Translations under genes and position numbers: made by a program | Shown here: positions 6,847 to 46,752 of the stretch, piece by piece | Position numbering within the stretch: position 1 is the stretch's first letter | How the letters are laid out: the number at the start of each line of letters is the position of its first letter | The notes under the pieces: model-generated | Seen by the model: only the letters and a program-made list of their open reading frames with translations | Database searches by the model: none | What the model was told of the DNA's origin: nothing | Assembly (NCBI RefSeq): GCF_943181415.1 | Contig: NZ_CALPBZ010000005.1 | Span: forward strand, 1 to 64,000 | DNA length: 64,000 nt | DNA from: Microbacterium sp. Marseille-Q6648 | GTDB lineage: Bacteria > Actinomycetota > Actinomycetes > Actinomycetales > Microbacteriaceae | Direction of reading: 5' to 3'

Positions 6847-6861
6847 CTGCTCTGTCAGCAG
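6847..6861. promoter_or_regulatory. Palindromic operator candidate between regulator and PLP enzyme
   Basis: CTGCT-N5-AGCAG is a 15 bp perfect-arm inverted repeat in the 113 bp gap between the divergent Lrp-type gene and the PLP enzyme. Lrp/AsnC proteins bind 15 bp imperfect palindromes, so size and location fit. Assignment to this regulator is an inference. Confidence 0.4.
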
Positions 6862-6902
6862 GATAGCTGGCCTAACCCTGTTGAAACGCACACCCTGGAG
6901 AT

Positions 6903-8214: not shown

Positions 8215-8395
8215 CTACTTCTTGCCGCGGCCCGGCGGAGTGGGCCCCGGTGCAGGTTCCGGCTCGGGCGCCGGCTCGGGCTCGGGCTCGGGCTCCGGCG
8301 CAGGCTCGGGCGCAGGCTCGGGCTCGGGCTCGGGCTCGGGCGCAGGCTCCGGCGCCGGGTCGGTTGCGGGTGCCGGTTCGGAGCCGGCGAGCGCC
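8215..8395 (-). repeat. C-terminal Pro/Glu tail of the giant protein; hexanucleotide repeat DNA
   Basis: The last 55 or so residues alternate Pro with Ala/Glu (PAPEPEPEPEP pattern) and end PTPPGRGKK. At DNA level the plus strand is a run of ggctcg/ggctcc/gcaggc hexamers from about 8251 to 8350. Such a low-complexity stretch can act as a rigid wall-spanning spacer. There is no LPXTG motif and no following hydrophobic segment. Confidence 0.85.
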
Positions 8396-11300
8396 GTCTG
8401 GGTCTCGGGCGGCGCGTACCCGTCCGTGCGCACCCGGAGGCTGTCGAAGCGTGCCGTGCCCGACGCGACCACGAGACCGAAGCGACCGTCGGCCAGCGCG
8501 GCGTTGTAGGCGCGCGAGGCGATGAACGCACCGCCCAGCATCAGCGAGACCGACGCGCCCTTGATGGTGACGAGCATCTCGTAGCGGACGCCCGCCGCCA
8601 GCGCCCGGCTCACGGTCTGGTCGATGACGGTGCGTCCGCCGGCGACGTGCCCGAACAGGACGGCCTGGGCCGCGAGGTCGAGCACGATGAACTTGTAGTC
8701 CCCGGCGTTGTAGTAGTCGTACACGATGCCGGCGCGCGCGCCCGCCTGCAGGGTGACCGCGGCGGTGAGCTCCAGGTAGGCGTTCGCGGCGAGGGCGGCG
8801 GCGACGTCGGCGAGCGCGATCGCGGACGGCCCGGATGCCGGAGCGGAACCGGTGAGCACCCCCTGCGACGCCGTCCACGTGCCCCCGACGGTGTCGCTCA
8901 CCAGCCCCGCTCCGTCGTCGAATCCCTCTGTCACGTCGAGCGTGATCTGCGGCGGCAGCACCTGGACCGAGATGTTGTCGAACACGCCACGTGCCTGGCT
9001 GGAGCCGACGCCGACGAAGCCCTTGTTGAGTCCCACGGCGACGCCGTCCACCATCCGAGGCGCGAAGGTGTGCGTGAAGGCGGTCTTGCCGTTCAGGAGA
9101 ACGGTCACCGTAGTGCCGTTGACGGCGACGAGCATCGAGTACCAGGTGTTGTACTTCACTCCGCCCTGAACAGAGCTCTGCACGTCGACGATCCAGCCGG
9201 CGGCGGTGCGGCGGCCCATGACCAGCTTGTTGGTGGACTGGTCGACGCCGGCGAACTTGAAGTCGTCGGGTGCGAAGTAGTCGAAGATGACGTACGCGTT
9301 GGCCTTCCACCCGCCCGTGGGCTTGGTGAGGTTCACCTGCGCGTGCAGCTCGTAGTAGATCGGCAGGTACTGATCGATGTAGTACACCGCGGCCGCGTCG
9401 CCCGAGGTGGAGGTCGCGGTGACGGTGAGCGACCCGCCGCTGACGGCGAAGACGCCCGAGTCGGCGAAGAACGCTTCGGCGCTGCCGCTGCTGAACGAGG
9501 CCGAGCGGAGCACATCCCGCTTGCCGCCGGGCACGTTGCCGGGCTGCGGGTCGCGCGGACCGCCCGTCTGGTCCTGCCAGTAGTCGTCCTGCTGGACGAT
9601 CAGACCGATCTCGCCGTAGGGCTCGCCGTTGCGCGCGGCGTAGAACTCGCCCGAGAGCTGCGCGATCGTGAAGTCGGCGCCCTGCGCGGCCGAGAGGCGG
9701 TACAGGAAGTCGTACAGACCCGGCATCACCTGCCGGCTCACGGTGCCGAGGCCGAACGGGGCGAAGGGCACGAGGTAGCTGTTGAACTCGCCGACCCAGT
9801 CGATGAGACGGTCGCCTCCGGTGTTGCCGATGAGGACGTCGAGACCGGCGCCGCCGAACGCGCGGTCCTCGTACGAGGTGTGGGTGTCGGGCTGGTCGTT
9901 CTCGCCGCCGTTGGTGGTCAGCACGTCGTCGGCGTTGAGCAGGTCGTTGCCCCAGCCGCCCCACAGAGTGTCTCGACCGGTGCCGCCGACCACCCAGTCG
10001 TTGCCGTGGTCGCCGAAGAGCACGTCGTCGCCGTCGGAGAGCGCACCTGCGTCCGGGCGGCCCTCGGTGGGCGTGAAGTTCAGGAACCACTCGCCGCTGC
10101 CGACGAGGATCTTCCGCATCGGCGCGTATTCGTCGTAGAGCGCGAACTCGCCGCTGGTGGTGTCGAACCCGAGGAGCGAGCCGTCGTTGAACGGGCGGGC
10201 GAAGTCGCTGCGGACGCCGCCCACGCCGTAGCCGACGGGCAGCGCTTCGGCGCCCGAGATCGCGTCGTCGCCGGAGCCGCCGTGGATGAAGTCGCCGTCC
10301 CAGCCGCCGAACAGGACGTCGTTGGCGTGGAGCGCGCGGTAGAGGGTGTCGAGGTGGTCGTCGTTGACGGCGAACGGCGTGAGATCGACGCGCTTGGTGA
10401 GCTTGCCGTTCGGGAACAGCACGGCGATCTGCACGCGCCCGGGCGTGGCGATCTCGACCTGGACGTCGGCGGCCGTCACGCCGTTCAGAGGTTCGGCGAT
10501 GCCGTTGCGGCTGGTGAAGATGCGCCCGTCGTCGTCGAGGATGCCGTCGACGCCGGTGCCGCCCGAGATCCAGTCGTGGCCCCAGCCGCCGATGAGGTCG
10601 TCGTCCCCGGCGTCGCCGAAGATGACGTCGTCGCCGCGTCCCGCGTAGACGGTGTCGTCGCCGGCCTCGCCGTGGATCTCGTCCGCTGCCCCGATGTCGG
10701 CGGACGCGGAGCCGGAGAAGTCGGGCCCGCCGGGCGTGTAGTCCAGCAGCTGGACCGCGCGCGGCAGCAGCCGCACGGTCTCGCCGTAGGTGTCGTAGGC
10801 GAAGGTGCGGTACTGGGTCGCCCCCGTCGACGTCACGGTGACCAGGCGCAGGATGTTGCCGTTGTCGCCGACGATGTTGTCGGAGTCGCGGGCGTGACCC
10901 GAGGTGTCGTCATTGCGTCCCACCGCGGTGCCGGCGCCGCCGAAGATCAGGTCGGCACCGTCGGGGCGCTGGGCCGGCGTGACGAGCGAGAACAGCTCGG
11001 AGCTGCCGCCGATGATGTCGTCGCGACCGAGGTTGCCGAAGATCACGTCGGATCCGCCGCCGCCCTCGATGTAGTCGTCGCCGTCGCTCGCCGCCGCGAC
11101 CGAGGGCGCCAGGACGAGATCGCCGGCCGCGGTGCGGTGTGCGCCGACGGTGTTGTCGATGGAGCCGTCGCCTTCGATCACGTCGTCGCCGAGCTGACCG
11201 AAGATGATGTCGTCGGCCGCGCCGCCCGCGATGCGGTCGGCGCCGTAGCGGTTCGTCGGCGTGGTCGCGGCGTGGTCGAGCAGGGTGATGCGGAAGTCGC

Positions 11301-14300
11301 TCCAGGCGGTCGCCCCGGCCGGGTCGTTGCGTGCCCCGTCGGTGACGAGCGCCTGACCGGCGGTGGTGAGCGCGGTGCTGTAGATCTGCGCGCCGGTCAG
11401 CGTGCGGAACCGGGGGCTGGTGTGATCGCCGAAGCCCGCGGACCGATCGAGCGAGACGTTGTCGCCGAAGATCAGGTCGCGGCCGGTCCCGCCGTCGATG
11501 CGGTCGGCTCCGGTGCCGCCGATGAGCAGGTCCTCGCCGCCCTCGCCGCGGATGGTGTCGGCGCCGCCGACCGCGTTGTCGGTGATCGCGACGGTGAGCG
11601 CGTGCAGCGCACCCGAGCGCACGGCCAGGACGAGGTAGCCGTGGTCGCCGAGCACGATGTCGGCTCCGTCGCCGGCGAAGACGGTGTCGCCGGCGGCACC
11701 GCCCAGCACGAGATCGCGATCGGCGCCGGTGCGGATGACGTCCGCGCCGCCGAGTGCCGGGTCGGTGGTCTCGATGCGACCCGCGCCGATCGGCGTCCCA
11801 CCCCACGTCGGCGAGACCGCGCCGCTCGCGGCGATGAAGCGGCCGTGGTCGCCGAGGACGACGTTGCGCCCGTCGGGAGCGCCCGCGGTCTGGCCGCGGT
11901 CGGCGGCGATGACGTCTCCACCGGCGCCGCCGAGGATGACGTCGGCGCCGATGCCGGTGGTGATGACGTCCGCCGAGCCGATCGTCGGGTCGACGGTGGT
12001 GATGAGGCCGACGGGGCGCACGGCGCCGTCGGTGATGTCATCGGGGCCGCCGGTGCCGGAGCGTGCGACCACGACGCCGTCCGCGTCGACCCATTCGACG
12101 ATGCCGCGGTCGCCGAAGACGATGTCGCCGCCGGTGCCGCCGTGGAGCTGGTCGGCGCCGATGCCGCCGAAGACGATGAGGGGCAGCGTCGAGGTCTGTC
12201 CGTCGACCACGTCGTCGTCGGTCGTGCCCGAGGGGAGGATCGCCCCGAGCGCCGGCATCGTGTAGGTGCGGAGGGCGCTCCGCGTCACCTCGACCACGAC
12301 GTGCGCGGCCGACCCGTCGCGCTGCGCCGGCGCGGCGAAGGTGAGGAGGCCGCCGGCCTGCGCGATCTCGGAGGCCGCCAGCATCCGCCCGTTGACCCAC
12401 ACCCGGTAGCCGACGAGGTCGCCGGTCGCGCCGAGGTCGTACGATCCGGCGGTCTGGACCGTCCAGGTGGTCAGGTGCAGCGTCACCCGCACGAGGTCGC
12501 CGGGGCGGAGGGCGTCGAAGAGCCCCGCGGTGTCGAGCGTGGTCGAGACGACGTAGCGGCTCGGGTCGAGCGTCCAGGTCGACCCGTCGCGGGTCACCGT
12601 GATGGTGGCCACGGTGTCGGCCCGGACGGGCTCGTCACCGTCGTCGAGGTCGGCGCCGAGCCCGAGCACGTTGTCGTTCGGACCCTGCGTGTTGAGGACG
12701 AAGAAGCCGTCCTCACCGGCCTGCAGGTCGACGGTGACGGTGTCGTCGCCGAGACCGGTGTTCAGCCATGTGGTGGTGCGCACGCCGGCGCGGGTGTGGG
12801 TGCCGTCGATCGTGATCGTGTCGGCGAGCCCGCCGGTCCAGATCCGGATGCCGTCGGCGAACGTGCCGCCGGCATCGGCGCGCCACGAGATGCCCGCCGG
12901 AGCGAGTCCCGTGACGAAGATTTCTCCGGTGGTCGACAGCGCGGCGTCCACCGCCCGCGCCGCTGCGGCGACGTCGGTGATGAGGACGTCGGTGTCGCCG
13001 GCGGTGGCGCCCTCGTCGCTCAGCAGCAGCGTGTGACGGCCGGAGCCGAGGTTCAGGTTCAGGGTGCCGGCGATGCGGTCGAGATCGCCGGCGAGGAAGG
13101 TGGGACGCTCGGTGCGTCCGACGTCGGCCCGCGAGGAGATGTACACGCGGTCGTCGCCGGGGCCGAAGGCCACGTTCGTCACGGGCAGCGTGCCGCGGAC
13201 GTTGAGCACATCATGGCCCGCACCGAGCGACAGGTTGAGGGTCTCGAGGCCGTGATAGCGGATGCCGGACCTCGCCCCCGCGTCGGTTGCGGCATCCGCT
13301 GTGCCGGCGCCGAGCGCGCCGAGCTGGATGAGCACCGGTGAGGCGGTGCTCTCGTTGACCTCGCCGCGGAAGCCGATGAGGTAGGTGCCGCCCACCAGCC
13401 AGACGTAGACGCTGGCGGCGCACTGGGTCGCGTCCGCGTCGCCGCAGCTCATCGACACGCCGGGGTCGGCGCCGGGCGTGGTCGGGAAGAGCAGGCGCTG
13501 CAGTGCCTCCTGCACGTCCGCGGCGGACGTGTTCGCGGCGAAGGTGACGGCGCCGATGCCGGTGGCCACGCCGTTGCGGATCTGAGAGAGGAGGATCGTG
13601 AAGCTCGCGCCGCGCGGGGTGACGGCGTAGAGCCGGTCGAGCGGGCGGCCGAGTTCGTCGACGCCGGTGCGCGGCGTCATGTCGAGGCCGGTCAGGGTGT
13701 CCTGCGTGAGCCACCCGAGGTTGTCGTCGCCGTCGCCGTGGTCGTACAGGTGTGCGGTGTCGTTCCCGACGCCGCCGTCGAGCACGAGGAGCGCCCGGAG
13801 CAGGTCGAGCACCGCGCCGGCGGTGCCGACGTGGAAGACGTCGTCGTCCGTGTTGCCGAACAGCGGAGCCGCCGAGCCGGCCGGACCACCGACGATGCGG
13901 GTGTGGCCGTCGACGGTGCGGACCGTGACGGTGTCGTCGCCGGGGCCGGCGTGGATGGTCGTGGTCCCGGCGTGGGTGTTCTCGACGACGAAGACGTCGT
14001 CGCCGTAGCCGAGCAGGATCGTGAGGTCTTCGAAGCCGGCGTAGCGGATTCCGCCGAGCACGGGGCGGCCGGCGAGCGAGTAGTCCCCGGCCATGCCGAG
14101 CCCTGTGATGCGGTCGCGGGTCAGCACGCCGGTGTCGTTCGCCGGGCTGTCCTCGTTGTGGACGATGAGGACGTCCACCTGCGCGGTCTCGATCGCGTCG
14201 GCGGTGCTCGCGGTGACCGGGAGCGGGCTCGACGAGCTCTCGCCCGGCAGCACGATGGGCAGGTAGCCGTCGAGCTCGAGCGTGACGGGCGGGTTCGGGT

Positions 14301-17300
14301 CGTCGCCGCCCGAGAGGTACAGCGGACCCTGGATCAGGTGGACCCGGCGGGCCGCGTCGGCGAACTCCTGCACGTCGCCGCCGTCGATGCGGACGTCGTC
14401 GATCGCGCGGACCCGGACGACCTGATCGGTCATCCAGCTCGCGGATGTGAAGGTCAGTTCGAGCTGCGCCACCCAGGCCGCGCCGTTCCAGAACTCCAGC
14501 TGCACCTCGCGGCACCCGTTCGGCAGGCCGCAGTCGGGGCCGCCCATGTCGAGGGTGAACGACGCGATCGCGTCGAGGGTGATCGTGACGGTCTCACCGG
14601 ATGCCGGTGCGCGGGTGAGCCGCACGGTGTAGGCGGCCTCCGCGCCGAACTGGTCGCCGGTGGCGCCTTCGACGAGGCGGATGTCGCCCCCGATGGGCGT
14701 GATGACGACACCCGCGGTGTCGCCGTCGTGGACGAGGACGTTGACGCGCTCCACGATCTCGCCGGGGATCTCGGCGACGTAGACCTGGGTCACGCCGAGG
14801 GTGAAGGTGCCCGTTCCCCACGGGTCGAAGACGGTGATGGTGGTGGCGGTGTTCGTCGCGATCGTCCGGTAGGTCGCGGTGCCGTTGGCGCCGACGATGC
14901 GCAGCAGCGCGCCGCTGAGTCCGCCGTTCGCGGTGGGCAGGACCACTCCGCCGAGGGTGACGGTGCGCTGGTCGGGCGAGATCGCGGTGACCGTGCCGAC
15001 GATCTCGTTCTGGACGATCGGCGCGGTGTAGCCGGTGATGACGAAGGCATCCCCCGACGTCGGGGCGACATCCCACTCGCCTTCGATCTCGATGGTGGTG
15101 GCGGTGTTGTCCCAGATGCGGGCGGTCTGTCCCGCTCCGGCACCGGTGACGATGCGGATGAGGTGGCCCTTCAGCGACCCGGGCGCCGCGGTGAGTCCGG
15201 CGAAGACGAACTCGCTCGGGACTCCGCCGGCGCCGGCGACCGTGCCGGTGCGGCGGTCGACCGATTCGATGACGGCGGTGATGGCCTGCACGTGCTGGCC
15301 CTCGACCGCGGTGTCGTCGACGGCCTTGGCGTGGATGGTCCGGGCTCCGGCGGTGGTGAAGGCGAGCACGAGCGTCGAGACCCAGTCGACGCCGTTCGTC
15401 GAGATCTTCAGCCCGGTCGGGGCGGTGACCCGCACGTTCACGGTGCCGAGCGGCGCCGAGGTGATGCGGACCTCGTAGGTCGCGGTCGTGCCGCCGGCGC
15501 CACCGGAGCGCTCGATGACGCGGATGCCGCCGTCGGGGACGGTGACGGGCACAGCGGGGGCGTCGTCGTCGAGGACGCGGACGAACGTCGTGGCGACGAG
15601 CGCACCGGCGTAGGCGCCGCCGGTGACGATCGCGTCGATGGGAGCCAGCCACTCCCCCTCGGACGACAGGTCGTCGATGGCCCGGACGAGGACCGTGCGC
15701 TGGCCGGTGTCGCCGGCGTCGAAGTTCAGGGTGACCGAGGTCTGCCAGGTGGCGCCGCCGTCGACGGACAGCTCGATGTAGCGGCTGCGGCTCGTCGACG
15801 TCGGGTCGATGGCCGGGCCGACGAGCGTCACCTGCACCGCCGAGGCGGACGCGTGGGTGAGCCGGACCGACACCGCACCGTGCGGGCCGTCTTCGCGGAG
15901 GACGAGCGAGCCGCCGACGGGGGCGATCACGACGGTGGGCTCGTCGTTGTCCATGATCTCGGTCGCGATGCCGTCGACCGGGATGAGCGCCCATGCGCTG
16001 TTGGCGACCGTGCTCTCGACGGAGTGGCGCACGAGGCCGGTGTGCCCGAGAAGGTCGTCGGCCTGGACGGCGGGAGCGGCACTGCCCACCTCCACGCGGT
16101 CGGAGCCGAGGCCGCCGAAGATCGACAGCTCGATGGCGGGGTTCGTCGAGAGGACGTGGAAGACGTCGTTGCCCTCCATGCCGTAGATCGAGACCTTCTC
16201 GACGTTGGTGTACCGGACGACCCGGCCCGCGCCGTAGACGCCGTTCGCGGTGATGACGAAGGTGTCGTTGAACTCGGTGCCGATGATCACGACGAGGTCG
16301 TATCCCGACCCGCCGTCGATGTTGACCGGGGCGTTCGCGGCGTACTGGATGAAGTTGCGGCCTTCGCCGGCGTCGACGGCGGCGAGCTCGGATTCGCCGA
16401 CGAAGGAGCGGATGACGAAGGTGTCGTCGCCGGCGTCGCCGTACAGGTTCAGGGTGGCGACGTTGCGGAAGACCTCGAACACGTCGTCGCCGGTGCCGCC
16501 GAAGACCGAGGCGGTGAACGAGACGCCCCGGGTCAGCTTCCCGCGCGTCGAGGAGAAGAACGCGGATGCCGGGAACTCGGCGTCGCCGGTGTAGGCGGTG
16601 TAGAGCTGTCCGAAGCGGAACCGGTCGTTGCCGGAGTCGCCGTTCGCGACCACGACCGACGCGGTGTCGTCGAAGGCGAAGGTGTCGTCGCCGGCCCGGC
16701 CGTTGATGACGACGCCGCCCGTGATCTCCTGCCCGTAGGTGACCTTCTCGACCGCGCCGAACTGGCCCGCGATCGCACCCGGCTGCGACAGCGCCGCGAT
16801 GAGGGCGCGGGTGGCGTTGCGCCGCATCAGGAAGGTGTCGTTCGCGGCGGTGCCGTTCACGACGAGCACGTTCGAGCCGCCGTCGAGGATGTCGAGGGTG
16901 TTGATGCGGCTGCTGCCGACGCCGAAGAGGTCGATGAGGAAGTAGTCGGAGTCGGCGCCGCCGTCGAGGTTGAGCGTCTGCCCGGCCATGGGGTTGACCC
17001 CGACGGGGCCGGGCGCGGCGTTGACGACGAGCCAGTCGTCGCCGCCCTGTCCGCGGACGGTGGTGGTGCCCGAGAGCGCTTCGACGAAGACGCGGTCGTC
17101 GCCTTCGGCCGCATTGACGGTCGTCGTGCCGGCGTGGGTGCCGTCGATGTTCAGCACGTCCGAACCGGAGCCGAGGGTGAGGTCGAGCGCCTCGACCTCG
17201 TCGTAGGCGATGCGACCGTCGGTCATGACCAGCACCCCGGTGCTGACCGCGCCGCCCGAGGCCGGCACCAGCGGGCGGCCGGCGACCGCGCCGATCGTGA

Positions 17301-20300
17301 GCGTGCGCGCCCAGCCGGCGGCACCGGCGAGCGCGCCCGTCCACGCGATGGTCCAGCGGTCGCCCGCCTTGGTCACGACGACGCTGCCCGCGCCCACCAG
17401 CGACGCCAGCGCCGCCTGCACCTGCGCGGCGGTCGCGTCGAAGGCCAGCTGCGTCGTCGTGCCGACGCCGGCGACGGTCAGGGTGAAACGGCCGTCGACG
17501 GCGCCGCGGACGGTCACGACCTGCACCAGGTTCGGCGTGGGCGACCCGCCCGTCATGCCGAGACCCGAGATCGTCGCCCCCGTGACGACGCCGATGCGGT
17601 CGAGCACCGTGGCGGTGTCGTCGACGTAGAGCGTGTCGGTGCCCGCGCCGCCGGTGATCGTCAGCGGTGCGGCGATGCCGGTGAGCACGCCGCCGACGCC
17701 GTTCGCGGTCGAGCTGATGCGGATGGTGTCGGTGCCCGCCCCGGTCGCCACGGAGGTGACTCCCGAGATGCTGCGCACGATGACGGTGTCCCCGCCGTCG
17801 TGGGTGGTGAGCACCGTCGAGCCGGCGTGGGTCGAGTGGATCGTGAAGGTGTCGCCGCCCGACCCGAGGTCGATCGTGAGCTGCTCGAGGCCGGTGTAGC
17901 GGATGCCGGTGCTCATGCCGAGGCCGGTGATCCACTCGAAGGTCAGCGCACCCGTGTTCGCCAGGGTGTCGCGGGTGTCGTCGATCGAGAGAAGATCGGC
18001 TCCCGTGCTGGTACCCGGGCCCGAGCCGCCGTCGACGACGAGGAGGGCCGAGATGGAGTTGACGTCGCCCCCGGTGTTCGTCCACGTCGTGTTGGTGGTG
18101 CCGGCGCCCGCCGCGTTCGAGCCGACGGCGATGCGGTCGGTGTGCTCGCCGGTGAAGATGCGGTGCTCGACGGCGATGGCGCGGACGGCGACGCGGTCGC
18201 CGCCGGTGAGCGTGCGGATCTCGACCAGCTCGACGCCGGCGTGGGTGATGGTCCCGAGCGTCGTCGTCGTGCCGGCGCCGTCGAAGGACACCCGTCGGAT
18301 GCGGTTGGACTCGGTGCCGGCCGGCGGCGAAGAGACGATGTCGATCATGAGGTCGTCGGGTGCGGTGGACCCGCGAACGTCGAGGCGGTCGGTGCCGGCG
18401 GAGTCGTCGATGTGGACCGCGAGGCCGGTGGAGCGGGTCAGCTCGACGCGGACGAGGTCGTCCCCGGCGCCGCCGTCGAGGTAGGCGGTCCCGGTCCACG
18501 GCTCGGACGTGCGGCGGACGCCGGCGACGAGCACCGAGCCGTCGGCGTCGCCGACCAGGAAGGTCGTCGCGGCCGACCCCGACGCGGTCAGCCGGGCGAT
18601 CTCGAAGATGTCGTCCAGGTCCTCGGCGATCGACCCGACGCCGAAGTCGGTGCCGACGACCAGACCGACGACGAACAGGTTGTCGTAGAGGCCGAAGTCG
18701 ACGCCCGAGAAGGTCTCGACGAGAGTGTCGACGCCCCCGGCATCCCGGAAGGTGTCTCGTCCGAGCCCGCCGGTGACGATGTCGTCGCCGGCGCCCGAGT
18801 TGAGGATGTCGTCGAAGCGCGAGCCGACGAGGGTGTCGGAGCCGAGGCCGCCGATGAGGGTGAGCGCCAGCTGGTCGGCGGTGACCCCGGCGGCGGAGAG
18901 CGAGTCCGCACCGTCACGACCGTCGATGACGAGCGCGTCGCCCTGGGCGCGCACTCCGCCGCCGATCCACACGTCGTAGCCCGCCGCCGTCGTGCGCTCC
19001 ACGCGGGTGCGGGCGCCGTCGGTGGTGACGACGAAGGCGTCGGCCGAGCCCGAGCCGAGCACGGTGACGATGTCGGTGCCGCCGGTGCCGAGGGCGATCT
19101 CGATCGACGAGATGCCGGACGCGTTGGCGGTGATGTCGCTGAGGATGATCTGGTCGGACCCGGCGCCCGCCTCGATGACCAGCTGTTCGATGTCGTACGT
19201 GTCGCGGGTGAGGCCGTTCAGGGTGTGGCGGAGGAGCTCGGACGAAGGGTTGCCGATGGTCAGCAGGTCGGAGCCGCCGCCGAGCACGAGGGTGAGCCGG
19301 TCGGTGCCGCTGCCGCCGTCGACGACCTGGGTGGCGCCCGAGGTGAAGACGGCCGCGGTGGCGAGGATGGTGTCGTCTCCGGCACCGCCGCTGTAGGTGC
19401 GGGCGAGCCCCGACAGGGTGTCGTCGTCGTCACCGCCGTTGAGCACGTCGGTGATGAGGTTGCCGAACAGCTGGTCGTTGCCGCCGTCGCCGTTGAGGGT
19501 CACGGTGCCCGTGCCGGTGTGGCGGAGGATGTCGGCGCCGGCGCCGCCGTGGACCGTGGCGGTCGCGGAGCCCGCCACGGTGATGACGTCGTTGCCGTCG
19601 CCTCCGCTGAGCACCGATCCGGTTCCGGAGCCCTGCAGCAGGATCGTGTCGGCTTCGGTGCCGCCGTCGATGGTGACGGGGATCTGCACGCTCGGGTCGA
19701 TGACGAGGTTGTCGACGCCGTCGCCGAAGTAGCCGTAGATGCGCTGGACGTTGGCGTACGTGCGGGAGTGGCCGAAGGCGGTGACCTTGATGGTCGCCAG
19801 TCCCCCGCTGAGGTTGCCGATCTGCTCGATGTAGACCGTTTCGGCTGTGACGGCGCTCGAGACGCTCCGGGCCGTGCGCTGGGCGGCGGCGCCGACGTTG
19901 AGGTACAGGTCGCGGTCGGTGCTCTTCCACTCGCGGAGGCTCTTGAAGGCGTTGACGCCCGTGTAGGTGACGTTGTTGCCGGCGAGGTACGGCACCACCG
20001 GGAAGCGGACGGTGCCGATCTGGATGGTCGCGGAACGGGAGTACCAGGAGCCCAGGACCTTGAAGCGGACGGTGACGCGGAAGTTGAGCGGGACGTCGCC
20101 GTTGGAGTCGGCGGTCCGGGAGTCGGCCGTGACGGCGAGGTCGAGTCCGACGCCGAGGCTGATCTCGAAGAGCTTGAAGTCGAAGTAAACCTCGACGCTG
20201 GCGGAGCCGCCGATGAAGAGGGTGTACCAGACGATGCCGTCCTGCTCGTGCGAGAGGAACGAGACCTCGAGCGAGAAGCTGCCGCGGATGCCCATGAAGC

Positions 20301-32300: not shown

Positions 32301-35300
32301 GGAAGATCGACACGGCCGTCGCCGAGACCTTCACGACGCGCGCGGTGCCGGCGCCGGCCTGCTCGAAGGTGAAGTTGCCGCGGAGCTGCTGACCTGCCAC
32401 GTCCAGCGCCAGGCCGGTCGCGGTGATCGAGAACAGCGAGGTCGCGGTGTCGACCGTCAGCTGCATCGTGGCGGAGGCGCTCACGCCGGGCACTGTGAGT
32501 GCGACGGTGCCCGAGATCGTCCCCGACATGCCAGCGGTGGCCAGAGTGAGCGTGCCCGCTCCCCCGGTGAGGGTGAGGATGTCGGTGCCGCCGCTGCCGA
32601 TCCGCAGCGAGACATCGGCGAGGACGATCGTGGTGGTGGTGCCCGAGCGTTCGAACGAGATGTCCCCTGTGAGGGACTGCCCCGCGATCGCGAGCACGAT
32701 CCCGCGCCCGCCCACGCGCACGTACGTGCCGGCCGTGAGGTTCAGCGAGACGGTGCGACCCCCGAGGGTGACGGCCTCGGTGACCTGGGCTCCCGTGCCG
32801 TTCATCGTGAGGAAGAAGGAGCCGCTGATGGTGACGCCGGCAGGCAGCAGGCTTCCGAGGTCGAGCGTTCCGGCCAGCGACATCGCCATGCCCGCGGGAG
32901 CGAGGACGATGAGTCCGTCGACGCCGGTGAGCAGCGGGTCGTCCTCGCCGAGGGCGACCTGTCCGCCGGAGATCGCGATGACGGTGCGGGTGACGCCGGC
33001 GGCGTTGCTGGTCTGCTGGAACGACACCGACGCCGTCAGCGAGATGTCGCCGAGGTCGAGGAGGATGCCCTCGCCCACGATCCGCAGATACGGTCCGGCC
33101 TCGAGGCGCGTGGCTGCGGCATCCGAGAGGACGACCGCCTGCCCGGAGCGGTTGATCTCGAGGCGCAGCGCGTCCGCGCCGACCGTGATCGACCCGCCGA
33201 GCGAGATGGTCGCATCCGTGATCTCGAGGATGCCGGCCAGACCCGCCGGGCCGATCTGCAGGGTTCCGTCGAGCGTCAGTTCGCCGATCGGGTCGCCGAA
33301 GTCCGCCGTCGCGGCGACCTCGATGTCGATGATCCGCACGCCCGCGGCCGTGGTGCGCTGGGTGAATCCGATCTCGCCCTCGGTGAGGAGGAAGCCGCCG
33401 ATGTCGACGGTGATGCCGGTCCCCTGGATCGAGAAGGTGGGAGTGAGCCCGCCGCGCGTGTCGACGCTGACGGCGAAGTCGCCCGTCACCTCGATGCCCG
33501 GCAGCGTCACCGCGACCGTGCCGGCGATCTCGCCGTGGATTCCGCCCGCGGCCAGGGTGAACTCTCCCGTGCCGCCGGTGAGGGCGACGAACTCACGGGT
33601 CCCGTCGCCGAACGACGCCCGGGCGCCGGTGACGGTGATCACCGTCGTCGCGGTGAGGCCGCTGCCGGACTGCTCAAACGAGAAGGAGCCCGAGAGGCGC
33701 TGACCGGCGACGAGGATGGCCACGTCGGTGCCGTCGACGCGAAGGTATGGTCCGGCGGGGAGGGCGAGTTCGACCGTGGCGCCGTCGAGCTCGAACGTGC
33801 GGTTCGCTGCGGGGCCGGAGTTGACGGCGATGGTGAAGGTCCCGCTGAAGCGCACCGCGTCGCCCGGGACGACGAAGGTGACGGTTCCGCCGACGCGGCC
33901 GGCGATGCCGTCGGCGGTCATCACGAAGACCGCCGAGCCGTCCGTGAGGCGGACCCCGGCGGTGGCGGTGCCGAGCTGCAGGGTGAGTGCGGAGGCGATC
34001 AGCACGGTCGTCGTGGGTGCCGCGGTGCCCGCGGGAGCCCCCGCGGCGACGGGTCCGCTCACCTGCGAGAAGACGAAGACGCCGCCGAGGCTCTGCCCGG
34101 CCACGGTCAGAGCCGCGGGCGTGGCGAGCGTGCCGACCTGGACCCGCACGGATCCGGCGGGCAGGACGACGCCCTGCACCGTGCGCGGGGTGGTGGCGGT
34201 GTTCAGCTGCAGCCGGACGTCGCCGGTGAGGGCGAACTGGTCGCCGGCGTTGAGCGTCAGCGTCGCGGTGAGCACGGTGGCCAGACCGGTCGGGGTGAGC
34301 TCGAGCTCTCCGGCCGCGATGGTCGCGACGGCCACGCCGTCGCCGAGGCTCAGGGTCAGGGGGGCTCCGCCGTCGCGCGCGGACGAGCCGAAGCGGATGC
34401 GCAGTCCGCCGCCGGCGAGCGTCTCGATCGCGAAGGTGCCGGTGAGCTCCTGCCCGGCGACGCCGAGGACCAGGTCGCCGATCACCAGAATGTGGGGTGC
34501 GCCCGCCGCGCCTTCGGCGACGGTCACCGCGTCGTCGCCCGAGCCGAGGACCTGCTCGCTGGTCGTCTCGTTGTAGTACACCCATGCGGTGCCGCCGAGG
34601 GTGACCCCGGGGATGCCCACGAGCGCGACCGTTCCCGCGATGGCCACCAAGCGGCTGCCGGCGGTGCCCTTGGCGTAGCCGTTGACGCCGGTGAGGTACA
34701 GGCCGGTGGCGAAGGGATTGACGGCCCCGCCGTCGATGAACCCGGGACCCTGGCCGACGAAGACCGTGAGGTCCGAGACGGTGACCTCGGCGCCCGCGAA
34801 GCTGATGGTTCCGATGATCTCCACGAAGTCGCCGAGCTTGATCGACCCCGAGACGCTGACGGCCACGTACGCACCGGACGCGTCGGCGACCTCGGCGGCG
34901 GTGAACAGCAGCGGGACGGCGATCCCGCCGACGAGGATGGTCTGGTCGATGGCATCGGGAGTGCCGTTGTAGCGCACCGAGAGGGTGGCGTCGGCGTCCA
35001 GACCACCGCCGGCGACCGCCACGGCGCCAGAGAAGAAGCCGGCGATGCCGTTCGCGGTCAGGAGGAACGCACCGGTGCCGTCGGTGATGCCGACCGCGCT
35101 GGTCTCGCCTTCGGGGACGAGTGAGACCGAGACGTCGGCGAAGGCGATCGTGGTGACGCTCGATGGCGCACCGGCGAGGTAGCGGATGCCGCCGGCGGTC
35201 GCGAGGACGATGTCGAGGTCGTCGCCGGCGTCGAAGCGACCGACGGCCAGCGTGGTGCCGGCCACCGCACTCAGCGTGACCGCCGACCGGAAGCCGAGCC

Positions 35301-38300
35301 ATTCGCCACCGACGCCGGTGCCTCGGTTCAGCTGGAGGAGCACGCCCGCCGTGGTGGCCAGGACGATGTCGAGGCGCCCGTCGCCGTCCATGTCGGCCAG
35401 CGCGATCGCGTCGGCGACCGGCGAAGCCGACGAGACCGGTGCGGCCGGCGACAGTCCGCCCCAGGTGCTCACGCCGCCCGTCGTGGTGAATCCGGCGTTG
35501 CGGTGCACCTGCACCGGGCCGCCGTTCATGGTGACGACGAGATCGCGGAAGCCGTCGCCGTCGACGTCGCCGACGGCCGCGTCCGTCGCCGCCGCCGTGT
35601 TGGCGAGGGTGAGAGGCGCGGTGTACGCGGTCCAGGCGGCACCCGAGCCGCCGGCGTTGACGTACACCGCGTGCGGGGCACCGGCGTTGACGACCACGAG
35701 GTCCGGGAGGTCGTCGCCCGTGAGGTCGGAGAGCAGCACCGACACCGTGCCGGTGTGGGCGAGGGTCAGCGACGGTGCGGCGGCGAACCCGGTGGGGGTC
35801 GCGCGGAAGACGAGCGCTCCGGTCGTCGCGCCGACGACGATGTCGGTCCGTGCGTCGCCGTCGACGTCGGCGACGGCCACCGCGGTGGCGCCGGTGGTGT
35901 TCAGCGTGATCCCCGCGGCGAAGGAGCCGCCGAGGTTCTCGTACACCGCCGATGTCGTCCCCCGGACGACGATGACGTCGAGGAGGGCGGAGCCGCGGAC
36001 GTTCGCCAGCGCGAGGGCGGTGGTCGTGCCGCTGCCGGCGGTGAAGGTCGCGGCGGGAGTCGCCGTGAAGACGTCGGACAGCGAGACGGGGATGCCGGGT
36101 GCGCCGGTTCCGAGGTGGAGCGCCGCCCCGGTGGCGGTGGCGGTCAGCAGGTCGGCGCGGCCGTCGCCGTTCACGTCGCCGGTGGCGACGACGAGGCCCC
36201 CGGTGAACGTGCCCGAGAGCGTCGTGACGCCCGGTGTCCGCGAGCGGCTCAGCAGGAAGTCGCCCGAGAAGGCGGGTCCGCCGGTGACGCCGAGGACGCC
36301 GCCGGTGATCGCGACGTGGAGGAAGGGCCCGGCCGGAACGTCGATGCCGAGGTCGGTGCGGCGGACGGCTGCGGAGGTGGTGTTGACGGCGAACTCGACG
36401 TCGCCGCCGATCGTGATGCCGGGCAGCGTGAAGATCCCGGTGGTGCTGCCGGTGAAGCTCGCCGCGACCCCGCGCGAGGAGACGAGCATGGCACCCGACC
36501 AGGCGTGGGCGGCGGTGATGTCGACGAAGGTCCCCAGCCGGAGGGTGAGGTTGGTCACCGCGAGCGCCGTCTCACCCGAGGGTGTGCGGCTGATGAGGAT
36601 GCGGTCCGCGCCGAGCGTCTGTCCGGCGACGGTGAGGCTCGCGGCGGTGACCTCGACCTTGAACCCGGGACGGACGACGGTCTCGTCCGGGCCGCCCGGG
36701 TCGAGGGTGACGTCGGCGGCGCCGGAGTTGATCTGCACCGCGACGGCGCCCGAGACAGAGAGGCCGGGGACGGTGACGGCGAGGACCGCCGAGACCGACC
36801 CCGCCATGCCGGTGCCGGTGAGTCGGAAGGCGCCCGAGATCTGAGTGGCGCTCACCAGCGGCGCACTCGGAGTGCCGAAGCGGACGACACCGTCGGTGAT
36901 CGTGAGGGTGAGGACCCCGGCATCGTTGACGATCTCGATGTCGCCCGAGAGGGTCTGGCCGGCCACCCCGATCGAGACGCCGGTTCCGGCGATGCGCAGG
37001 TAGCCGCCGGCGCCGCCGGCCGGGAGGTCCACGGTCACGGTGCCGTCGCCGACCCGCACCGTCTCGGTCACCCTCGCGGCGGTGGTGTTGATCTCGAGCG
37101 CGAGGGTGCCGGTGAGGACGACGCCGGGCACTCCCGACAGGGCGACGGTGCCGCTGACCCGCCCGGCCAGCCCGCCGGTGCCCGGCAGCACGAACAGAGC
37201 CTCGCCGCCGGTGAGGCTGAGCCGCGCGGCACCGGCGGTGAGCGCCAGCTGCACGCGCGCGAGCGCGATGCGGGTGAGGGTGGTGTCGTCGGTGCCGCCA
37301 GGGACGCCGTCGGCGCCGTAGGACGTCGCCCGCTCGAACGCCACGTCGGCCGTGATGGCCTGTCCGAGCACTGTCAGCACGACTCCGGTGCCGGCCAGCC
37401 GCAGGTACGGCCCGGCCGGCAGGGCGAGAGCGACCGTGCCGTCGCCCACCTGGAACGTCTGGCTGACGGCGGCGCCGGTCGTGTTCACCTGCAGTTCGAG
37501 CGCACCCGCCAGGGTGAACGGTGCGCCGCCGGCGACGGCGATGCTCACCGTCAGCGACCCGGCGATGCCCGAGCCGTCGAGGACGAAGAGGCCGGTGCCG
37601 TTCGTCGCCGTCAGGGGCCCGAGAGTGAGCGTGACATCGGCGAGGCCGATGCGGACGACGGTGGCGCCGGTGCCGGTGGCGACGCGCTCGAAGACGAGGT
37701 CGCCGGTGAGGGTCTGCCCGAGGACGGTGATCTGGAGGTTCTCGCCGCCCACGCGGACCACGCCTGCGGGCAGCGGCGTCGTCCAGCCCGCCACGGTCTG
37801 CTCCGTTGCGGTGGTGTTGAAGGCGATCGTGACCGCGCCGGTGACCGCGATACCGGGAACGGTGACGATCACGTCGACGGCGATGGCACCATGGGTGCCG
37901 GCGGGGGCCAGGACGATCGTGGCCGTGGAACCCGCCTGCTGGGCGAGCTCGACGATGGGAGCGGCCCCGCCCAGGATGAGACGCGCGTTGCGCAGGGTGA
38001 TCTCGGTGGCGCCGGCGTCATCGACGATCTCGACGTCGGCGGTGAGCTGCTGGCCCGCGATGGTGAGGACGATGCCGGTTCCGGCGATCCGCACGTAGGG
38101 GCCTTCGGGCAGCACGAGTTCGAGGGTCTCGCCGCCGACCTGGAACGTCTCGTCGATGTCGGTGACCACGGTGCTGATCTCGACGACGAGGTCGCCGGTG
38201 AGGCTGACCTGCGGTACCGCGAGAGCGATGCTGCCGGTGATGCGACCGGCGACGCCGGCGTCGCTGACGAGGAGGAGCGCGGTGCCGTCCGAGAGGCTGA

Positions 38301-41300
38301 CCACTCCCCCGGCGAGGCTCAGCTGCACGCTCGTCGCGGCGATCCGCAGCACCGACCGGCCCGCGTCGGGGATGCCCGTGGCGGGGTCGAGCGCGGTGAC
38401 CTGCTCGATCGCGACGTTCGCGGTCAGGGACTGGCCATTCACCGTCAGGGTGAGGCCGGTTCCCTCGAAGCGGATGAACGGACCGGCGGCCAGATCGAGC
38501 GATCGCGTGGCGGTGCCGACGAGAACGGATGCCGTCACACGGGCGGCGGTGGTGTTGAGCGCGAGCGAAAGGGAACCGCTCAGGGAGGCGTCCGCGCCGA
38601 GACGGACCGAGACGGTGCCGTCGATGCGTCCCGCCAGCCCCGTGGCGGTGACGACGAGGATGCCGGAGCCGGCGCTCAGTCGCACACCGATGTCGTCGCT
38701 GACGTCCGCGGCCTCGGCCCCCGGCGTGCCGCCGTCGTCGCCGATGAAGAGCGAGGCGTCGGCGAGACCGATCACCGTCGTGGTGACACCGCCGACGGAG
38801 GTGCGCTCCACGGCGATGTCGGCGCGGATCGTCTGTCCGAGGAACGCCAGGTCGAGACCGGTGAGCGCGACCCGGACGTAGGGTCCGGCGGGGAGCGAGG
38901 TGCTGTCGACCGTGACCGACGCCGGGGCGGTGTTGACGGCGACGTCGGCCTCGACGTCCTCGATGCCCAGGGCGGCGATCGTCACGGTGGCGTTCAGGAC
39001 ACCGGCGATGCCGTCGGCGCGGACGACGAGGTCGCCGGTGATCTCGCCGATCTGCACGGCGTCGCCGAAGACCACGGAGCCGTTGTCGACGGAGAGGGCG
39101 AGGTCGCCTCCGGACCGGTCGAAGCGGAAGTCACCGCTCAGCGTTTGACCGCCGAACGCGAGCATCGCATCGGTGACGGCGAACTCGGTCACGGCGTCGC
39201 CCGTCGCGAAGGTCACCGCGACGCCCGGCTCGGTGCTTCCGGGGATCTCGATGGTCTGGCTGACCGCCTCCCCGGTGGTGTTGACGCGCACGCTGGTGGT
39301 GCCGGTGAGGATCACACCCGCGACGCCGACGAGGCTGACGGTGCCGGTGGCCACCAGGGCGTGCCCGGATGCGGTCTCGACGAGTCCGATGGTGGCGCCG
39401 GTCAGCAGCACGCCCACCGCGAGGGGATTGAGCGCTCCCGAACTGAGGAAGGCCGGACCGCGGCCGAGGAAGACGGTGACGCCCGTTGCGGCCACGACCC
39501 GGACGGGAACGCCCCCGATCACGGTGTCGCTGAAGGTGATGTTGCCCTCGATGGTGACGAAGTCTCCGATGGTGAGGGTGAGGTCGGACGCGGAGAGGCT
39601 GAAGACGATGCCGCCGGGCGCGGGTGCCGGCAGCGTGAAGACGATGCGGGTGCCGCCGACGGTGAGGACGGTGTCGATGGCATCGGCCGTGGTGTTCACC
39701 TGCAGCAGCACCGAGCCGTCGACGGCGACCGCGTCACCGCCGAGCGAGATGGCTCCCGACAGGAATCCGGCGACCCCTCCGCTGCGGATGAGGAAGGCGC
39801 CTTCGCCGTCGTACAGCGACGGGTCGGCGTCTCCGTCGAGTGTCACGTCGACGCCGGTCATGGCCACGACGATCTCGACCGCTCCTGCGGCATCCGTGGA
39901 TCGGGTGAAGGCGAAGGAGCCCGAGATCGTGCCGGCGCCGGCGATGGTGGCCGTGAGCCCATCGACCTCGATGCGCAGGTACGGCCCGGCCGGCAGGACG
40001 CCGGTGCCCGGGTCGAGGGGACCGGGCGTGGTGTTGACGGCGACCGTGACCGTCGTCCCGGTGACCGACACGAGGTCGGGCACGGTCAGGTCGGCGCTGG
40101 CGGTGACGCTGCCGGCGATGCCGGCCGCCGTGATGAGGAAGCTGCCGGTGAGGGCCCGGACTTCGACATAGGGCGTCGCGCTGGGGCCGAGGTCGATGCT
40201 GCCGCCCGAAACGTCGACGCGGTAGGACACCGCACCGGAGGTGACGGTGCGCGCGAACCAGACGGTGCCGGCGATGTCGATACCTGCCACGCGGACGGTC
40301 AGGCTCGTGGCGCCGACGCGGATCGTGCCGGCGGCGATGCCGTCGTGCGCCGAGGCGGCATCCGTGTTGATCTCGACGGTGAGGCTTGCGGCGGTGATGC
40401 TCACGCCGGGGACGGCGAGAGCGGGGGCCCCGCTGAAGGTGCCCCAGATCCCGGATGCGCCGGCGGTCAGCGTCGCGGTGATGCCGGTCAGGGTGGCGAC
40501 GCCGTCGCCGAACACGAGCGAGCCCTGCGTGACCGCGATGGTGGTGGCGGTGGCATCCCGGGTGACGACGACGGTGCCGGTGAGGCGCTGTCCCGCGATC
40601 TCGAGCACGATGTCCGAGCCGGACACCCGCAGGTAGCTTCCGCCGCCGGCGGGGACGACGAGCGCCACGTCGGCGCCGCCGACGTTGACGGTGGTGTCCA
40701 CAGCCGCGCCGGTGGTGTTGACCTCCACCGCCAGCGCGCCGGTGAAGCCGACGCCCGGCAGGGCGAGCGTGACCAGTCCGCTGATGCGTGCGGCGAGGCC
40801 GGCGGTGGTGACCACGAGGGCGCCGGTCGCCCCGCTGACCGCGAGGATCGTGGTGGACCCGGCGGTGAAGGTGAGGCTTCCGCCGGTGAGCGCCGCCCGC
40901 ACGACGGTGGCGCCGGCGGCATCCACACCGCGCTCGAACGCGACGTCGACGGTGAGGGTCTGACCGCCCACCGTGATGACGGTGCCGAGCGCCTCGACGC
41001 GCAGGTAGGGCCCGGCGGGGATCGCCCCGACCGGGGCGCTGCCGGTGTTGACCGCGACGGTCACGCCGGACGCGAAGGTGAATCCGGTGATGTCGGAGGA
41101 CACGGTTGCCGACAGCCGGCCTGCGACCCCCGAGGCGGTGATCACGAGCGAGCCCGTCACGTTCTCGACGGCGAGGAGATCGGACGCGGCTTGCGAGAAC
41201 GCGAACGCGCCGCCGCTCACCGTGATCTCGGTGCGCGTGACGCCGGCGACGCTGGTCCGCGCGACCGTGATCTCGTCGAAGGTCACGGACTGGCCGGCGA

Positions 41301-44300
41301 GCAGGAGCTCCACCGTGGAACCCGTCACGCGCAGGTACGAGGCGCCCGCGGTGGTGTCGACCTCGAGGTCGAGGCCGCTCGAGAACGCGAAGCCGGGCAC
41401 GGCGACCGTCAGGGTGCCGGCGAGGGTGGCCACCGTCGCGCCGGTCGTGCGGGTCCAGGTCAGGGTGCCCGAGCCGCCCGTGAACTGCGCGACCGGGGTC
41501 GCGCCTCCGAAGACAAGGGCGAGGTCGGACGCGGTCACGGCGTAGCCGGCGGTCGTGCGGGCGAACGCGAGGTCGCCCGTCAGCGTCTGGCCGAGCACGA
41601 CGAGGGTCAGTCCCGTTCCGCTGAAGGCGGTGAACGGGTCGCTCGCTCCGGCCACCTCCTCATCGGTGAACGCGATCGTGACGTCACCGGTCCCGTCGGC
41701 GAAGGTCACGGTCTCGTCGATCGCAGTGGCGAACCCGTTGATGCGTGCCCGGAAGTCTCCGGTGAGGGAGATGGCGTTCCAGCCGGTGAGCGAGACCGTT
41801 CCGCGAGCGTCGACGGCGACGTCGGTGCCGCCGCTCGTGGTTTCGACGTAGAGCGCGACCACCGCATCCGAGACGCGCAGCCCGTCGCCGAGGTCGAGCT
41901 CGAGGTTGCGTGCCACCGCGGCGATCGCGGTCCGCCCGGCGACGGTGTCGATCTCGATGCGTCCGGCGAAGGTCGCGTCCACGATGCCGGTGGCGACGAC
42001 GGTGGCCGCGAGCGTTCCGGTAACCCCGGCGGCGGCGAGGACCAGATCGCCGGTGCCCTCGCTGAGGGTGACGACCTGATCGGTACCCTCGCCGATCGTG
42101 GCCCGGAGCCCGGTGATCGCGAGGGTGGTGACCGCATCCTGCCGGGTGAGCCGCACCGCTCCGGTCAGCGTGGCGGTGCCGATCGTGATCGCCACGTCCG
42201 CCGAGACGGCGAGTCCCGCGGTGCCGTCGTACGTGAGGACCGCCGCCGTGAGCGCGAGCCCGGACCCGCCGGCGGTGAAGCCGACGGTGCCGCCGGTGAC
42301 GCGGAGGTCGACGTCGCCGGTGTCGTCGCGAGAGACCAGCGAGAGCGAGCCGCCGGTGATCTGGACCTGGCCGCCGATCGTGGCGCTCACGCCGGCGGCG
42401 GTGAGTGTGAGATCGGAACCCGACTGGCTGAGGGTGGCGGCGGTCGCGCGGAGCTCGGCGATCTCGGTGCCGCCGGAACGGATCGAGATGCCGAAGTCGG
42501 TGTCCGGCGACACCGCGCCTGCGGTGATGAGCAGCGACCCGGCATCGAGGGTGGCGGCCTCGGTCAGCGTGTAGGTCGCCGACACCGCCGCCGTCGCCGT
42601 GATCGACAGGGCGCCGACGGTGAGCGCCAGCACCAGGCCTGCCGAGATCGTCGCCGTGCCGCTGTACGACGGCCCGGCCGAGAGCGATCCGATCGACAGG
42701 GTGATGTCGGTGAGCGTCAGCGCATCGCCGAGGGCCAGGTCGCCGAGGTTCTCGGTGAAGGAGGCGTTCGCGAGGTACGCCTGCAGCTGCTGGACGACGA
42801 GTCCGAGGAGGCCGGCGAGCGGCGACCCGGCGACGTAGTCCGAGAAGTGCGGGAGCGCCGCGGTGAGGGTGCCGGTGCGGGCGTCGTACGTCGTGGCGAT
42901 CGCCTGGAGCGCACCGTTCGGTGCGACGTACCAGATCCGCGCCCCCTGCACGGCGTCATCGACGGCGATGGTGAGGACGGGGGCGATGCGGAAGGTGGTG
43001 ATCTCGGCGCCGGTGCGGGCGTCGTACGCGCGCAGGTCGTAGATCGCCGAGGTGGTCAGCAGTCCCGAGACGCCGCTGTCGCGGGCGGTGATCGTGACCC
43101 AGGCGTCGGCGGGGAGAGATCCGGGGGCGAAGGTGAGGGTCGCGCCGCGGAAGGCGAGGGTTCCGCCGGTGGCGGCGGAGACGAGGATCGCTCCGGCAGG
43201 CGGCGTGATCGCCGGCGTCTGCGGGAGGGTCCCGTCGTCGAGGGTGAGGGATGCGCCCGGGTTCTGCAGGGCGACGGTGGCGGTGAGGCGGATGGCGGAG
43301 GTGGGGGTGGACTGGTCGTTCGCAGCCGGAGGACCGCGGCCCGCCTGGATGTGCACGTCGTCGCCGGCGAAGACGGGGGCGTTGACCGCGACGACGGCGC
43401 TGCGGGTGTGCAGCGGAACGATGACGACCTGGTCGACGGCGAGGTCGAGTCCGCGCCCCGTGGTGTTCGATCCCGTGGCGAGGGCGGTGAGCTCCACGGT
43501 GCCCCCGCTGCGCAGCGGCGCGTCGTCGAGGGCGAGTCCGGTTCCGAGGCCGACGGTGCTCGTCGCGGGGAGCACGGTCGCCGCGAGGCCCCGCACCTCC
43601 ACGCCGGCGACGGTCGCGGTCAGAGCGGCGGCGGCCGCGGCATCCGTCTCCGCCGCGCCGAGCGCGGCGAGCAGCCGCACGGGCGCCGCGACCGGCCGAA
43701 GCGGTGTGGCGGCGGGGGCGGCGGTGGCCGCCGTCGTGGAGGTGCCGGTCGACACCATCCGCACGTCACCGGCGACGACGGCGGCGCGCTCGAGGACCAC
43801 GTGCACGCGATGCGTCCCCAGGACCAGCGCAGCCCCGGCGCCGGTGGCGCGTGCCGAGGCGCGCTGGGTGGCGGTGAGGCTGAGGTCGCCGGTGGCGGTG
43901 AGGGGCGCGCCCGGCGCGGCGGCGGCCGACGTGTCGGCGGTCGACGAGACGAGGGCCCAGCCCGCTCCCCCGTCCGCCAGCGCGGAGTGCCGGGTGCTGG
44001 CCGCGAGGGTCACATCGTCGGCTCCCGAGAGCGCGGCGCCGTCTCGGAGTGCGCTGTCGGCGACGTCGCGGACGACGAGGGCGGCGACCCCGCCGGCGCC
44101 GAGGGCGCGGGAGGTCGCGGCGAAGTCGGACTCGGACTTCAGGTGCAGGTCGGCCCGGCCGACCTCGAGAGTCGCATCGGCGGCGAGGTGCGCGACCGTC
44201 TCGACGAACGCCCGCCCGATCGCGACCGACTGCGCATCGGGGTTCGCCGCCAGCGCGAGAGCAGCGAGGTCGCCGGAAGCACCGGAGGTCGCACCTCGCG

Positions 44301-46752: not shown

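Follow-up and report, generated by a model that had tools for sequence, protein, structure and literature searches.

RTX adhesins of the LapA/BapA kind are giant proteins that carry RTX repeats near the C-terminus and leave the cell by type I secretion across two membranes, and the giants of Chlorobium chlorochromatii belong among the very large predicted proteins. Very large predicted proteins are also encoded by Omnitrophota, according to a survey of huge proteins that lists NRPS as the leading bacterial domains and Actinobacteria as the main contributor (PMC11573180). The Vibrio VB16 LEPR-XLL giant comprises ~8000 aa and bears RTX and serralysin domains at its C-terminus (PMC10868602). Fibrillar adhesin-like proteins are recognized by extracellular location, a terminal adhesive region, and a rod-forming stalk, an anchor being usual rather than strictly required; a known anchor is missing from nearly half of the proteins surveyed, and in fibrillar adhesins of actinobacteria the binding domain is mostly N-terminal (PMC8286594).

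The gene considered here belongs to an actinobacterium, Microbacterium sp. Marseille-Q6648, in agreement with the host type originally predicted. It was analysed within a window, i.e., the whole stretch of 64,000 nucleotides, which forms the start of a 465,031-bp contig in a genome of 3.49 Mb (8 contigs), contains an rRNA operon at 56-5331, and has an N count of 0. The features of the locus are as follows (window coordinates; residues are those of the giant protein).

8215..46752, minus strand: giant gene, predicted secreted protein (12,845 aa with a TTG start in the open reading frame listing)
46900..48180, minus strand: partner gene, 426-aa lipoprotein (lipobox LTGC; C-terminal part a right-handed beta-helix, PF13229, E 8.1e-11)
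46573..46752, minus strand: N-terminus, signal-peptide-like segment, residues 1-60, ending AAADA (by eye)
45553..45912, minus strand: matrixin-like zinc metalloprotease module, residues 281-400 (HEIGHALGAGH at 349-359)
42853..45312, minus strand: stretch without a Pfam family, residues 481-1300 (Pfam scan, 0 hits)
29398..42201, minus strand: main 123-residue repeat array, residues 1518-5785 (33 of 38 matches in a profile search)
35143..36255, minus strand: FG-GAP block interrupting the repeat array, residues ~3500-3870 (PF13517, E 1.3e-20, at 35206-36225)
24943..28215, minus strand: central core, best conserved part, residues 6180-7270 (bins 6250-7000 at 79-88% identity)
22483..25590, minus strand: modules with internal repeats, residues 7055-8090 (34% self-similarity, E 1e-40 with composition correction off)
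19873..22425, minus strand: second repeat-bearing core, residues 8110-8960 (alignment A1 and repeat matches)
12253..19755, minus strand: RTX-like or mixed region, residues 9000-11500 (11 of 23 GGxGxDxU motifs, at 9050-10213)
9853..12177, minus strand: RTX calcium-binding repeats, residues 11526-12300 (12 of 23 GGxGxDxU motifs, at 11529-12300)
8353..9465, minus strand: twin concanavalin-like (LamG / 3keto-disac_hyd) domains, residues 12430-12800 (PF06439; second copy by eye)
8215..8385, minus strand: Pro/Glu-rich tail ending PPGRGKK (read from the sequence)

By description, the giant resembles the Vibrio VB16 protein in its size and in its RTX C-terminal part, but the latter is a Gram-negative protein with LEPR-XLL at the N-terminus. 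The RTX adhesins of the LapA/BapA kind are likewise similar in giant size and in the position of RTX repeats near the C-terminus; type I secretion genes were not found among the 8 window proteins scanned, and the window contains no HlyD relative. The giants of Chlorobium chlorochromatii and Omnitrophota, likened to the present protein by description only, are larger. Like fibrillar adhesins, the giant is a long chain built of repeats and may carry a binding domain towards one terminus; unlike them, it has no known anchor motif, its repeats fall outside Pfam, and the possible binding domain is near the C-terminus. Pfam scans of the giant detected no surface anchor family, and LPxTG occurs internally but not near the C-terminus in any of seven actinobacterial giants. 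Since no anchor was found, the giant is not filed as a fibrillar adhesin, although it may work like one. Giant RTX and LEPR-XLL proteins are the known kind to which it is related; what is new is a LEPR-less actinobacterial branch that combines a lipoprotein partner with a repeat unmodelled in Pfam.

The giant frame extends over 12,869 codons from stop to stop, and its translation has a single, terminal stop. The start codon is uncertain, being either TTG at 46752 or GTG at 46740 (12,841 codons); a third candidate, ATG at 46614, would truncate the signal-peptide-like segment. It should be noted that the antisense strand of the gene contains open frames of 5,934 and 3,783 aa, the longer of which occupies 13738-31542 on the plus strand, inside the giant gene. 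At high GC, antisense frames of thousands of codons make open length alone a poor proof; for this reason, the open frame was rejected as proof of a gene, and conservation was tested in its place. The frames compared were those of 2FI, G121, M. mangrovi, a Rhodoglobus MAG, Leaf288, and Agrococcus sp. KRD186, while three fragmentary loci (L024, L025, and L026) were excluded from full-length counts and the first two of these were used in alignments A2 and A1, A2 covering residues 2690-3440 and A1 residues 8110-8960. In all six relatives the frame is open across 12,119-12,530 aa (the 2FI giant is truncated at the contig start), and the giants can be aligned along the frame with pairwise identities of 57.2-72.9%. 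One of these open frames resides in a one-contig genome of 3,625,519 bp (G121).

The Nei-Gojobori script returned dN/dS of ~0.20-0.42 in every full 1000-codon bin for two pairs, the ratios being computed from rounded values and dS being approximate because third positions are almost all G or C. In the C-terminal half, substitutions at codon positions 1/2/3 amount to 0.173/0.119/0.384 in the first pair and 0.170/0.123/0.355 in the second, and GC at the same positions of the giant is 0.67/0.54/0.94. Purifying selection in all full bins of both pairs, therefore, indicates that the giant gene is functional along its length, as judged by constraint. The single terminal stop, the lack of N, and the six open, alignable frames of relatives, together with selection and codon-position pattern, bear out the original prediction of one uninterrupted gene of 12,845 residues that is not an artefact of high GC.

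Most, but not all, of the predicted domains were recovered. A signal peptide had been proposed, and by eye the start is indeed signal-peptide-like; similar N-terminal segments open the relatives' frames (2FI is cut there), and coil-like and Thr/Gly-rich linkers can likewise be discerned by eye. The predicted protease motif is present as well, HExxHxxGxxH being complete in all seven actinobacterial giants and in three giant frames of a more distant actinobacterium, G1096; Pfam Peptidase_M10 matches the module at E 0.0016 with 18.8 bits, below the cut-off of 24. Residues 461-1300 have relatives at 51-61% identity in each of the five actinobacterial genomes searched and no match in the verrucomicrobial genome DG1235. 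RTX repeats and a concanavalin-like domain hold up equally: over the whole C-terminal piece, PF00353 reaches E 1.7e-20 in 7 stretches (predicted calcium binding), and the first concanavalin-like copy scores 35.2 bits with PF06439 against a cut-off of 26.8. The predicted FG-GAP repeats are real but not general. In the alignment, the six relatives show an occupancy of 0.03 for the 3500-3750 bin and of 0.55 for the following one, and FG-GAP was rejected as core architecture, since among the relatives aligned it is seen in the Microbacterium sp. Marseille-Q6648 genome only. Two predicted components were not supported at the thresholds used: residues 10211-10722 gave no Calx-beta family at E <= 1, and residues 6871-8110 gave no Ig-like family at E <= 5 despite the internal repeats there, the sole Pfam match being FlgE_D2 at 0.48. 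The original interpretation was also incomplete, with no mention of the lipoprotein partner, of the repeat making up a third of the chain, or of the LEPR-XLL homology.

The central core is ~40% identical to its counterparts in two further genomes of the DG1235 phylum, G244 and G317, and alignment A1 includes 8 relatives, among them DG1235 at 46%. A search of PDB sequences with the core returned no credible relative (best E 0.33). Related pieces of the RTX-like or mixed region occur in DG1235 and G1096. The entire giant has 6 cysteines. Basic C-terminal ends are found in six of the seven giants, the tail of M. mangrovi being different and non-basic.

A third of the giant (33% of residues) is accounted for by the 38 matches to the 123-residue repeat, whose profile was built from sequence and iterated. 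Besides the main array, 5 matches fall at residues 8151-8731, the first of which is weak; 36 of the 38 span at least 70% of the model, and the two weak ones score 13.1 and 6.4 bits, the former overlying the edge of the FG-GAP block. Reversed or shuffled sequences yielded no matches. In the repeat consensus, hydrophobic residues alternate. At E <= 1, Pfam returned no family for the member from the window, none was hit in more than one of 8 members, and PDB sequences gave no credible relative (best E 0.41). The other six actinobacterial giants have 37-38 matches each, and the verrucomicrobial giants have 45 (DG1235), 47 (G317), and 32 (G244); 4 matches occur in G1096 frame B, and G1096 frames A and C, two alphaproteobacterial giants, and the longer Rhodococcus frame have none. 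The profile was iterated on part of these giants, so that the counts lean towards that group.

Relatives outside the phylum come from a sweep of the phylum of DG1235, in which 3 of 387 genomes, DG1235 included, carry such frames: 15,545 aa in DG1235, 13,828 aa in G244, and 18,984 aa in G317. HSPs to DG1235 cover 67% of the residues of the giant, with the order of the principal ones preserved, and those to G244 and G317 cover 32% and 26%, respectively, repeat-to-repeat matches being counted. On the strength of these alignments, the giant interior is largely colinear with the 15.5-kaa Verrucomicrobiae frame. All three verrucomicrobial loci have a LEPR-XLL motif at an N-terminus, and the LEPR-XLL model NF012209 scores 27.2 bits in DG1235 (on a separate frame), 19.8 in G244, and 17.1 in G317, the cut-off being 17. 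In DG1235, the LEPR-XLL end (L061 5063-8671) and the body lie on two overlapping frames, which may be two genes or may reflect a shift in the draft sequence. Behind the G244 frame (L078, from ~C1:4301488) there is a second frame of at least 2,836 aa with a LEPR-like motif (by eye).

The actinobacterial proteins begin differently. NF012209 had no hit at E <= 0.1 in the N-terminal 460 aa of the giant, and no LEPR-like motif occurs in the first 400 aa of any of the seven actinobacterial giants or three G1096 frames. The motif having been tested and found absent, the giant is not filed as a LEPR-XLL protein. Its likeness to LEPR-XLL giants (NF012209) lies in a homologous interior, in the 123-residue repeat common to all three verrucomicrobial ones, and in the C-terminal module of RTX and concanavalin-like parts, which is 40-43% identical in two alphaproteobacterial ones that are without the repeat. 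The latter are Pseudosulfitobacter WP_114295156.1, annotated as LEPR-XLL (38,757-bp CDS; 40% identity over 11595-12783), and a 9,027-aa frame with LEPRYLLSA in Sinorhizobium chiapasense, whose C-terminal module is 43% identical. The actinobacterial giant differs in having a signal-peptide-like start and a matrixin module instead of LEPR-XLL, and a Pro/Glu-rich basic tail.

A further difference concerns the surroundings. At four of five LEPR-XLL loci, drawn from two phyla (DG1235, L060-L061; G317, L079-L080; Pseudosulfitobacter, L096; Sinorhizobium, L097/L100), genes for a SecA-like ATPase of ~675 aa, a GAF-HlyD protein, and an M50-type protein stand beside the giant, accompanied by OEP in two and by SapC in two; no such cluster was found in 70 kb around the G244 giant. 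None of the nine actinobacterial loci (the window, six relatives, G1096, and Rhodococcus) has a match to the three proteins at E <= 1e-10 within the locus; the seven actinobacterial carriers and G1096 have, instead, the lipoprotein. It should be noted that the homologous interior and the cluster beside the gene are associations used here and not part of the published definition of LEPR-XLL. The cluster is a candidate dedicated export system of LEPR-XLL giants. One of its members, WP_114295152.1 (L096 28302-30326), is annotated as a 'prepilin peptidase' and matches SecA_DEAD at E 8.5e-99, so that the annotation looks wrong. A literature search, mostly of papers free of subscription, found no description of either the giant/lipoprotein pair or the export cluster, and the available part of PMC3482391, on SecA-like systems, contains nothing relevant. 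Our reading of these comparisons is that one giant body may be fitted with the export ends appropriate to the envelope of its host.

The lipoprotein gene is the next gene upstream of the giant, on the same strand. Its relatives, at 47-61% identity, are present in all six actinobacterial carriers, and the lipobox cysteine is kept in 8 of 8 aligned lipoproteins. All five relatives with an upstream flank have the lipoprotein gene adjoining the giant on the same strand. In 2FI, where the giant is cut at a contig start, the lipoprotein is near the start of another contig, an arrangement compatible with a contig break through the pair, adjacency itself being outside the view. Within the genus, the lipoprotein was found in 4 of 198 sampled genomes, which are the identical four that carry the giant (own genome included; an 800-aa query had matches in 3 of 197 other genus genomes). 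Were the two genes independent, the chance of such an exact coincidence would be ~1 in 62 million, a figure that applies to this sample and to genomes that are related. The other neighbours of the window locus have, among the matches listed, no counterpart in the relatives' flanks, which are of limited length, apart from frames that overlap or run antisense and a single match at 36%, whereas G121, M. mangrovi, and Leaf288 have many neighbours in common. The pair, therefore, occupies more than one genomic site.

The wider distribution is patchy. A central 2,990-aa query had no matches in 57 other relatives searched, and a scan of genome contigs found 9 loci in 8 genomes. Sweeps of the family and of the phylum each detected one genome besides the own, among 398 and 396, respectively. 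In the family it is G661, whose locus has the same position and frame length as the Agrococcus locus, and in the phylum it is G1096, an actinobacterium outside the class of the window, in which three giant frames of 7,448 (B), 11,695 (A), and 13,159 aa (C) stand in a row over ~99 kb. HSPs to these frames cover 22% (B), 13% (A), and 13% (C) of the giant, repeat-to-repeat matches counted, and a beta-helix lipoprotein, 31% identical, is encoded on the opposite strand between B and A. The three frames lie on contig C45 at 22875-121952 (L088-L093), each with the matrixin motif, and B has a membrane-anchor-like segment at its end (by eye).

Carriage on plasmids or viruses was considered and rejected. 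Among 72,556 plasmid records, the central 2,990 aa had no match, and the C-terminal 800 aa had matches in 21 records, including those of Pseudosulfitobacter, Sinorhizobium chiapasense, and Rhodococcus antarcticus. In the 54.9-kb plasmid of Rhodococcus antarcticus, matrixin-type and RTX parts are on two frames; these frames, akin to the two ends of the giant and located at 6750-38452 (L101), take up about half of the plasmid. The 43 of its 54.9 kb that were read contain no match to the lipoprotein, so the partnership may not extend to all matrixin-bearing relatives. Weak matches to the lipoprotein (27-31%) occur in four Deinococcus plasmid records. Viral contigs gave 58 pattern matches, none of which is a relative of A1.

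In a tree of the core rooted with DG1235, the Rhodoglobus MAG clusters, at a support of 0.79-0.95, with the window, 2FI, and Leaf288; Agrococcus branches near the root (support 0.52). The tree is compatible with transfer inside the family, the name of the MAG being taken as given and support differing among parts of the protein. GC of the giant and of its flank vary together in each genome (for the window, the rRNA operon counts as part of the flank), which gives no hint that the gene was recently imported from a distant donor. Foreign composition, considered as a mark of such import, was not seen.

We consider it probable, with moderate confidence, that Microbacterium exports the giant through Sec to its surface, where the protein works together with the co-occurring beta-helix lipoprotein. 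Judging by its start, the chain would exit through the Sec channel, and outside the cell its folding would be aided by calcium binding to the RTX repeats; a calcium-stabilised extracellular fibre, as originally predicted, is plausible as an inferred form. The 123-residue repeats would build an elongated stalk, glycans may be bound by the twin concanavalin-like domains close to the C-terminus, and the Pro/Glu-rich basic tail may span or bind the wall. The membrane-tethered lipoprotein would substitute for a sortase signal by holding, folding, or capping the fibre, and the matrixin-like module may act in processing the chain itself or a partner.

Against this explanation stand the lack of an anchor in the scans, the different tail of M. 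mangrovi, the Rhodococcus plasmid without a lipoprotein match in the part read, and the presence of concanavalin-like domains in enzymes as well. In a secreted giant enzyme, the matrixin-like and concanavalin-like modules (the latter of the 3-keto-disaccharide hydrolase family) would be active in degrading extracellular polymers or proteins, and the repeats would be scaffold. The zinc motif complete in seven of seven giants and a PF06439 score above cut-off would suit such an enzyme; we nevertheless think it unlikely, given that the M10 score is below the Pfam cut-off, that the module amounts to ~1% of the chain, that the concanavalin fold is equally common in lectins, and that the constrained repeats and core would be left unexplained. 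Alternatively, instead of a stalk, the repeats might build an extended hydrophobic beta groove in which lipids are stored or carried between membrane and wall, the lipoprotein serving as membrane dock. The look of the repeat consensus, with its alternating hydrophobic residues, and the absence of a Pfam or PDB sequence relative agree with a groove, but RTX and lectin-like parts are better suited to adhesion, and we give the idea little credence.

Slimmer still is the chance that the giant is a toxin stick acting by contact, as in CDI or polymorphic-toxin systems, and bears a payload at its C-terminal end. Giant size, surface-protein features, and patchy distribution (4/198) are what such a protein would exhibit; the payload end, however, should vary, whereas the 12250-12500 bin is 83% identical to relatives, and no toxin or immunity family was found in the giant or in the 8 window proteins scanned. 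Finally, an open frame produced by high GC, or a decaying relic, would be in keeping with the 5,934-aa antisense frame in the same stretch, but it is scarcely credible in view of intact alignable frames in six relatives, dN/dS of ~0.20-0.42 across all full bins of two pairs, and a codon-position pattern maintained in the C-terminal half.

For the Sec-exported surface protein and its lipoprotein, comparison with the LEPR-XLL loci suggests a history: the pair resembles giant proteins of Gram-negative bacteria refitted for a Gram-positive cell. If the envelope changed from two membranes to one, the absence of the LEPR-XLL motif and of the SecA/HlyD/M50 cluster would be accounted for. More tentatively, and with considerable doubt, one might envisage, in one-membrane bacteria, a two-gene giant-fibre system in which a Gram-negative LEPR-XLL body has received a Sec signal peptide, a protease, and a basic tail directed to the wall, a dedicated beta-helix lipoprotein replaces both export cluster and sortase anchor, the 123-residue repeat is a stalk of a new fold, and the whole is a cassette hopping between genomes.

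A constrained predicted surface protein of 12.8 kaa with a fixed partner differs from huge proteins of the NRPS type. If the proposal is true, giant extracellular proteins would cross between two-membrane and one-membrane envelopes by swapping their ends, the lipoprotein would be a candidate anchoring partner where a sortase signal is missing, and the repeat would define a large family that has no model in Pfam. Microbacterium sp. Marseille-Q6648 spends ~1% of its genome on this one protein, and what the cell gains from it would be testable in an environmental isolate.
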